The position numbers were made by a program, and so were the translations under genes. Shown in pieces: positions 2,092 to 5,641 of a stretch of 5,641 nucleotides of DNA. The stretch lies in assembly GCA_014859225.1 (NCBI GenBank), contig JACUUP010000094.1, forward strand, positions 1 to 5,641, written 5' to 3'. The stretch comes from Candidatus Aerophobota bacterium (lineage in GTDB: Bacteria; Aerophobota; Aerophobia; Aerophobales; B3-G15). How positions within the stretch are numbered: position 1 is the first letter of the stretch; the number at the start of each line of letters is the position of its first letter. The notes below the pieces were generated by a model. The model was not told the DNA's origin and did no database searches. It saw nothing but the letters and a program-made list of their open reading frames with translations.

Positions 2092-2168
2092 TGGCACGCC
2101 TGGAGGGACTCGAACCCCCGACCCACAGCTTAGAAGGCTGTTGCTCTATCCAGCTGAGCTACAGGCGC
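2092..2168 (-). tRNA. tRNA-Arg (anticodon UCU), CCA encoded
   Basis: It folds by hand into a complete 77-nt cloverleaf. The acceptor is GCGCCUG / CAGGCGU, the D-stem GCUC / GAGC with loop AGCUGGAUA, the anticodon stem ACAGC / GCUGU with loop CUUCUAA, the variable loop 5 nt, and the T-stem GGGGG / CCCUC with loop UUCGAGU. The discriminator is G73, followed by CCA. The anticodon UCU is the complement of 2132-2134 and reads AGA (and AGG by wobble). A20 in the D-loop and G73 suit a bacterial tRNA-Arg. The first acceptor pair is G1-U72 wobble instead of the usual G-C. It lies 22 bp downstream of recD2 on the same strand, with its own likely promoter. Confidence 0.98.
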
Positions 2169-4607: not shown

Positions 4608-4635
4608 TTGACATAGAAAATAGTGGTGGTAAGAT
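4608..4635 (+). promoter_or_regulatory. Predicted proximal sigma-70 promoter of the LacI-type regulator gene
   Basis: A perfect TTGACA (4608-4613) is followed after 16 bp by TAAGAT (4630-4635, 4 of 6 matches). Transcription would start near 4642, inside the first operator copy and about 39 nt before the ATG. A repressor bound there would block the promoter directly. Confidence 0.6.
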
Positions 4636-4664
4636 TAAAACGATTCAATATTAAATCGTTTTAA
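4635..4664. promoter_or_regulatory. Double LacI-family operator / 30-bp palindrome
   Basis: Two 14-bp sites, TTAAAACGATTCAA (4635-4648) and TTAAATCGTTTTAA (4651-4664), both fit TTnAAnCGnTTnAA and lie 16 bp apart centre to centre. Each is itself a near-palindrome around a central CG, the usual form of LacI/PurR/CcpA-type operators. The two are also mirror images, so the whole 30 bp is a palindrome with 14 of 15 pairs matching. It begins at the last base of the proximal -10 and ends 16 bp before the regulator's ATG, which suggests self-repression. A transcribed hairpin is a weaker alternative; it is AT-rich and has no loop of normal size. Confidence 0.75.
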
Positions 4665-4680
4665 GTCAAAAGATTTTGAA

Positions 4681-5641
4681 ATGAAAGCTACAAAAGTTAT
4701 TCCCCAAAGGCCTAAAATTAAAGATGTGGCAAAATTAGCCGGGGTTTCCCCTGCCCTTGTTTCTTTAGCCCTTAATGGAAAACCCTATGTGAGCAAGCAG
4801 GCTAAAGAGAAAATCTACAGGGCTATAAAGAAACTTGGCTACAGACCAAACATCGTTGCCCGCAGCCTTCGGCAAAAAAGGACAGGTACTATAGGACTTG
4901 TGCTCTCTGACATTGCCAACCCATTTTTCCCTGAGATAGCAAGGGGGGTGGAGCAAAGAGCAAGAGAGTATGAATTCAATGTTATTTTGTGTAATACCGA
5001 TGCTGACCCTTTTCAGGAGGAAAAATCAATTGAGACCTTACTTTCAAAACAGGTAGATGGATTAATTATTAGTTCAGCAAGAAGTATTGATAACCTAAAA
5101 AGATACCTGAAAGAGAGTCGTCCCATAGTTCTTGTTAACAGGGACCCTGCCCCGGGTATGTTTGATTTCGTGGGAATAGATAATGTCTCGTCTGCTAAAG
5201 TAGCGGTTAATCATCTTATAAAACTTGGCCATGAAAGAATTGCTTTTATTGAGGGAGAACCCGCATCAGCGGCAAGCTTTGGTAGATATGAGGGGTATAA
5301 GATGGCATTGAAAGAAGCAAGGCTTTCTCTTAAGGAAAATTACGTAAGGATAGGATACTTAAAATATGAAGGCGGATATCGGGCGATGCTTTTCTTTTTA
5401 AGACAAACCTCTCCTCCAACAGCCGTTTTTTGCGCTAATGATATGATGGCTCTGGGAGCAATTGATGCCTGCATGGATAAAAATGTGAGAGCCCCGCAGG
5501 ATATGGCAATAGTTGGCTTTGATGATATGTGGGTAGCATCTTTAAAAACTGTTCAGCTCACAACAATGCGCCAGCCCCGCTCCCAAATAGGGGAAAAGGC
5601 TGTTGATTTAATGATGGAGAGAATTGAAGGCAAAAGAGATA
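4681..5641 (+). CDS. LacI-family transcriptional regulator, 3'-partial
   Basis: DNA-binding regulator of the LacI/GalR family, which usually represses sugar uptake or breakdown genes and is released by a small ligand. The frame stays open for 320 codons to the window edge, so about 10-25 residues are probably missing. Residues 13-33 are the helix-turn-helix (IKDVAKLAGVSPALVSLALNG). Residues 53-64 (GYRPNIVARSLR) hold the hinge helix that enters the minor groove. From 68 on is the periplasmic-binding-protein-like ligand domain: GTIGLVLSDIANPFFPEIARG, VDGLIISS, GHERIAFIEG, RYEGYKMAL (Arg202 at the usual ligand-contact site), FCANDMMALGAIDA, VGFDDM and TTMRQPRSQIGEKAVDLM. ATG-4681 is the only start that keeps the HTH whole: the frame is stopped upstream at 4636 and no other upstream start codon occurs. 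The Shine-Dalgarno is weak. It is divergent from recD2 and has a double operator just upstream. The ligand cannot be told. Arginine codons are mostly AGA/AGG. Confidence 0.96.
   Translation, partial: MKATKVIPQRPKIKDVAKLAGVSPALVSLALNGKPYVSKQAKEKIYRAIKKLGYRPNIVARSLRQKRTGTIGLVLSDIANPFFPEIARGVEQRAREYEFNVILCNTDADPFQEEKSIETLLSKQVDGLIISSARSIDNLKRYLKESRPIVLVNRDPAPGMFDFVGIDNVSSAKVAVNHLIKLGHERIAFIEGEPASAASFGRYEGYKMALKEARLSLKENYVRIGYLKYEGGYRAMLFFLRQTSPPTAVFCANDMMALGAIDACMDKNVRAPQDMAIVGFDDMWVASLKTVQLTTMRQPRSQIGEKAVDLMMERIEGKRD

Follow-up and report, generated by a model that had tools for sequence, protein, structure and literature searches.

Sequence comparisons make us largely confident that a 30-bp palindrome upstream of a LacI-family regulator gene consists of two abutting 16-bp candidate operators for the encoded repressor, placed over the promoter of its own gene. 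The paired sites are very probably the on/off switch of this gene and its operon, and we consider it probable, with somewhat less assurance, that two dimers would occupy both predicted operators simultaneously.

Results

The window, i.e. the whole stretch of DNA analysed, is the entire contig G000:C225 (5641 bases) of a 1.8-Mb draft genome. A pattern search of the window found exact matches of TTnAAnCGnTTnAA at 4635-4648 (TTAAAACGATTCAA) and 4651-4664 (TTAAATCGTTTTAA), with centres 16 bp apart, and no further match at up to one mismatch. A repeat search reported an inverted repeat with arms of 15 nt (4635-4649 and 4650-4664) that are 93% complementary and have no spacer. The original prediction of two such sites at this spacing, together forming a 30-bp palindrome with one mismatched pair, was reproduced exactly (Table 1). 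As 16-mers, ATTAAAACGATTCAAT and ATTAAATCGTTTTAAG abut without a gap, and both are even, CG-centred palindromes with six of eight pairs each, in G000 as well as in the related genome G002. The palindrome ends 16 bp before the regulator ATG.

Table 1. Predicted promoter, operator and gene features of the window (G000:C225)
Feature	Position	Strand	Remarks
-35 hexamer TTGACA	4608..4613	+	promoter scan; at the matching place TTGACA in G002, TTGACT in G015
-10 hexamer TAAGAT	4630..4635	+	promoter scan; the palindrome opens with its last T
Predicted operator 1, 16-mer ATTAAAACGATTCAAT	4634..4649	.	CG centre 4641/4642, near the expected transcription start; identical in G002; G015 counterpart ATTAAATCGATTGAAT
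Predicted operator 2, 16-mer ATTAAATCGTTTTAAG	4650..4665	.	abuts operator 1; centre expected at ~+16; identical in G002; G015 counterpart TTTAAATCGATTTAAT, 15 bp from site 1
30-bp palindrome from both operators	4635..4664	.	14/15 pairs
LacI-family transcriptional regulator	4681..5640	+	HTH VSPALVSLAL, hinge ARSL, ligand domain; gene cut by contig end

At least two scattered matches of TTnAAnCGnTTnAA at up to one mismatch were present in 14 of 200 shuffles of the window, and the single pattern alone is therefore not decisive. Among 20,000 simulated 300-bp upstream regions (first-order Markov), a single site occurred in 21, a 30-bp palindrome with at least 14 of 15 pairs in three, and the double site in none. 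The double site is not a product of chance. G000 contains the double pattern once and its reversed control not at all. Across the 17 searchable genomes of the phylum, the double pattern was found in three places, in every case ahead of a regulator belonging to a single clade, and the reversed control in none. We also inspected the upstream regions of 130 LacI homologues; beyond the three, pairs at 12-16 bp were only GC-rich palindromes in Streptomyces loci, which probably arose by chance.

The single motif had also been put forward as a means of finding the regulon, a use that the genome-wide search did not support. G000 contains just two further places with the single pattern, both within open reading frames, and G002 has no other copy of its exact single site. 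Single sites elsewhere were few, and in all genomes searched the reversed control pattern was more frequent; the regulon search yielded no convincing added members.

The predicted -10 element and the palindrome share a T, and this fusion recurs in G002 (TAGTAT/TAAAACG) and in the more distant relative G015 (TATAAT/TAAATCG). The spacers between the -35 and -10 elements are 16 bp (G000), 17 bp (G002) and 16 bp (G015). From this promoter geometry, transcription would be expected to start at ~4641-4643, on the CG of operator 1, with the centre of operator 2 at ~+16. A predicted operator lying over the regulator's own promoter, as found here, points to an autoregulated local regulator of the LacI family. 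According to a published survey, 72% of the LacI-family regulators studied are autoregulated, and most of their sites have a central CG (PMC4052901). The original assignment of LacI-type operators to the regulator's own promoter is borne out by the sequence, with the palindrome fused to the predicted -10. A clear ribosome-binding site is absent before the regulator ATG in G000 (4665-4681) and likewise in G002; G015 has GGAG before the ATG. At the G015 locus (L045, ~8830-8880), mirror symmetry runs through the -10 element (GTATAAT ... ATTATAC), giving a TATAAT on the opposite strand too.

Pfam searches identified an N-terminal LacI HTH in the regulator (PF00356; 57.7 bits, cut-off 27; 1e-15) and a ligand domain (PF00532; 129.4 bits, cut-off 22.2; Peripla_BP_1, 2.3e-37). 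This combination of a LacI HTH with a periplasmic-binding-protein-like ligand domain makes it a member of the LacI family. The sequence models and solved structures nearest to it are those of RbsR, PurR and CcpA, with RbsR 9ny7 as the best structural match. All three NCBIfam models scored below their curated cut-offs (RbsR 255 against 531 bits, PurR 239.5 against 501, CcpA 237.5 against 442), so that the regulator, of which only the C-terminal end was missing from the query, does not qualify as an orthologue of any of them.

The hinge Ala and Leu for a central CG step are present (VARSL in the window protein, IARSL/VARSL in G002 and G015), and the intact ARSL motif therefore fits central-CG recognition. 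In the recognition code of the family, Arg at AA-20 goes with G at NT-6 (PMC2978694). In contrast to this Arg-20/G class, the regulator has P15, A16 and L20 and its operators have T at NT-6. All three regulators with a known promoter carry Leu at AA-20, and every half-site has T at NT-6 (consensus ATTnAAWC), which weakly suggests a joint departure of protein and operator (n=3 regulators). The orthologues stop shortly past the ligand domain and a LacI-type tetramerisation tail is not evident, making DNA looping by the regulator unlikely.

The closest regulator with a readable promoter is that of G002 (70% identity). Its promoter carries all 30 bp letter for letter, within a 35-bp identical block that comprises the palindrome plus a few bases; the bases flanking this block align poorly, and the gene DNA is 75% identical. 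Upstream of the G015 regulator (48% identity) we found TTAAATCGATTGAA and TTAAATCGATTTAA, two CG-centred sites 15 bp apart. Their palindrome centre differs from that of G000, and the two 16-mers share one base pair and have seven of eight pairs each. Conservation upstream of related regulators, on which the original prediction had depended, was thus observed as an identical 30 bp in G002 and as two CG-centred sites in G015. The promoter comparison covers these three genomes (n=3); in a fourth, G001, both regulators and promoters are cut by contig ends.

In a tree of 47 LacI homologues, the regulators of G000, G002 and G015 and the two G001 copies form one clade (support 100/95), in which one G001 copy groups with G000 and the other with G002. 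If the tree is right, two paralogue branches have retained the operator pair, since G000 and G002 fall into different branches and carry an identical pair. The pair may be common to two paralogous regulators; one of the G001 copies in the tree is a short fragment.

At 10.5 bp per turn, a spacing of 16 bp corresponds to 189 degrees (~1.5 turns) and one of 15 bp to 154 degrees. Dimers at the two sites would therefore lie on nearly opposite faces of the helix, contrary to the earlier claim of roughly the same face. The mirrored layout, which had been read as a feature of its own, proved to be largely automatic, because two copies of a palindromic site in a row form a larger palindrome. What stands is the mirroring at NT-2, where the sites of G000 and G002 deviate from perfect palindromes (outer half-sites AAAAC, inner AATC). 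G015 has AATC in all four half-sites, so this mirroring is absent from the more distant relative.

As a pair of even, CG-centred palindromes near the promoter, the sites qualify as predicted tandem operators. The survey gives spacing peaks of 13, 22 and 32 bp for the LacI family, although its histogram may include occasional pairs at 15-16 bp, and reports more than one site in ~20% of regulated operons (PMC4052901). The spacings of 16, 16 and 15 bp in G000, G002 and G015 match none of these peaks. A literature search, which missed most subscription papers, found no LacI operator pairs at 15-16 bp. We regard the pair as a modest variation on common tandem LacI operators, at a spacing that is not a reported peak.

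The contig ends inside the regulator gene, and the gene upstream on the other strand is recD2. A tRNA-Arg (anticodon TCT; 2092-2168, minus strand) lies between recD2 and a protease gene at 2-2077, which encodes a subtilase (S8) with two Big_7 domains, a type-IX-secretion-like C-terminal sorting domain and two near-identical Ig-like repeat stretches (EWRVDG..WEDAEYEPSSGYYEA).

Genes downstream of the regulator were read in the relatives. In G002, the regulator gene and a FadX-like CoA-transferase gene overlap by 16 bp, and SDR and thiolase genes, overlapping as well, come next. Behind one G001 copy lie a methylmalonate-semialdehyde-dehydrogenase-like gene, a split transketolase and a zinc alcohol dehydrogenase; the genes behind the second copy are similar. 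In G015, the regulator gene is separated by ~290 bp from a downstream ABC sugar transporter on the same strand. The two G001 operons (L043 on G001:C35, L044 on G001:C38) resemble each other; each stands behind a regulator paralogue, is cut inside the regulator gene, and contains an aldehyde dehydrogenase, a small protein, the split transketolase and the zinc alcohol dehydrogenase.

Most likely, the promoter drives a catabolic operon with the regulator as its first gene and a cargo that varies among relatives; for G000, we infer the operon from these relatives. That the promoter would serve the whole operon is indicated by the 16-bp gene overlap in G002. Of the earlier proposal of tight self-repression, the operators at the regulator's own promoter stand, and the restriction to the regulator itself does not, the target probably being the whole operon. 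The G002 CoA-transferase has no match in G000. Contig C208 of G000 carries, behind an alcohol dehydrogenase, an aldehyde dehydrogenase with 78% identity to that of the G001 operon; it was considered as the missing operon and rejected, as no link between C208 and C225 was found. The C225 contig end matched no other G000 contig.

Discussion

We propose that ligand-free repressor would bind with one dimer per CG-centred site. Operator 1 would straddle the transcription start and touch the -10 element, with operator 2 ~16 bp further, and the bound dimers would extend from the edge of the -10 across the start point and over the first two dozen bases. Binding would keep RNA polymerase from opening or escaping the promoter, and ligand binding would release the regulator gene and the catabolic operon, both under one promoter. 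Any cooperativity would act via DNA deformation and not by direct contact, the dimers being nearly opposite at ~1.5 turns.

Alternatively, the two sites could be mutually exclusive registers, occupied by one dimer at a time, that raise the effective local affinity. In the survey, motifs of the family measure 16-22 bp (PMC4052901), so complexes 15-16 bp apart could clash, and the G015 16-mers do overlap by one base pair. However, base contacts in known structures extend 7 bp to each side of the site centre (PMC4052901), and such contact zones do not overlap at 15-16 bp, which is what makes double occupancy plausible; the location on nearly opposite faces would lessen a clash further. We consider exclusive registers unlikely. 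The strongest form of the two-dimer model, an obligate double-dimer LacI switch on nearly opposite faces, coupled via DNA deformation, kept together with the -10 element as a fused unit and perhaps common to two paralogous regulators, is a tentative possibility that we rather doubt.

The original prediction had left room for a single unusual site read across the AATATT centre, by one dimer or a tetramer. The 30-bp dyad of G000 (14/15 pairs) is indeed more symmetric than either 16-mer (6/8), and CcpA has been reported on separated half-sites with a variable spacer (crevar, PMC5263246). Against this, G015 has another centre and a 15-bp spacing, yet both CG-centred sites, and the hinge motif fits a central CG, which together make the single large site very improbable. 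Equally hard to credit is that another regulator binds the palindrome or that it is a structural element of DNA or RNA. Cruciform extrusion is conceivable for an AT-rich inverted repeat without a spacer, but in the 17 genomes searched the double site is restricted to this regulator clade and fused to the -10 element. An RNA hairpin at the transcript 5' end was not supported: the predicted transcript starts within the palindrome, and folding of its 5' end was no better than that of shuffled sequences (z -0.12).

Two abutting operators bound by two dimers would have partial parallels. RafR and ScrR likewise have two sites of one LacI-family regulator per promoter, with the pair kept across the orthologous group; according to the survey, their double sites are only at 21-22 bp, whereas the 15-16 bp here (~1.5 turns), being neither 21-22 nor 32 bp, would put the dimers out of phase (PMC4052901). 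GntR at E. coli gntKU also has closely packed LacI-family sites conserved across orthologues, as described there, but its operators overlap at ~13 bp, and so do their contact zones, whereas the 16-mers here abut (G000, G002) or share one base pair (G015). QacR on IR1, a comparison of working principle only, places two dimers on a large inverted repeat that overlaps a promoter (PMC3022030); it is an unrelated protein of the TetR family that represses an efflux gene.

The genes downstream in relatives (CoA-transferase, thiolase, semialdehyde dehydrogenase, transketolase) suggest that the regulator governs catabolism beyond simple sugar uptake. For an uncultured phylum, our findings name a specific regulator-operator pair that can be tested. 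They also offer a natural case of two LacI-family sites at half-integral helical spacing, outside the peaks given in the published survey, in which one may ask whether LacI-family dimers cooperate without facing each other.
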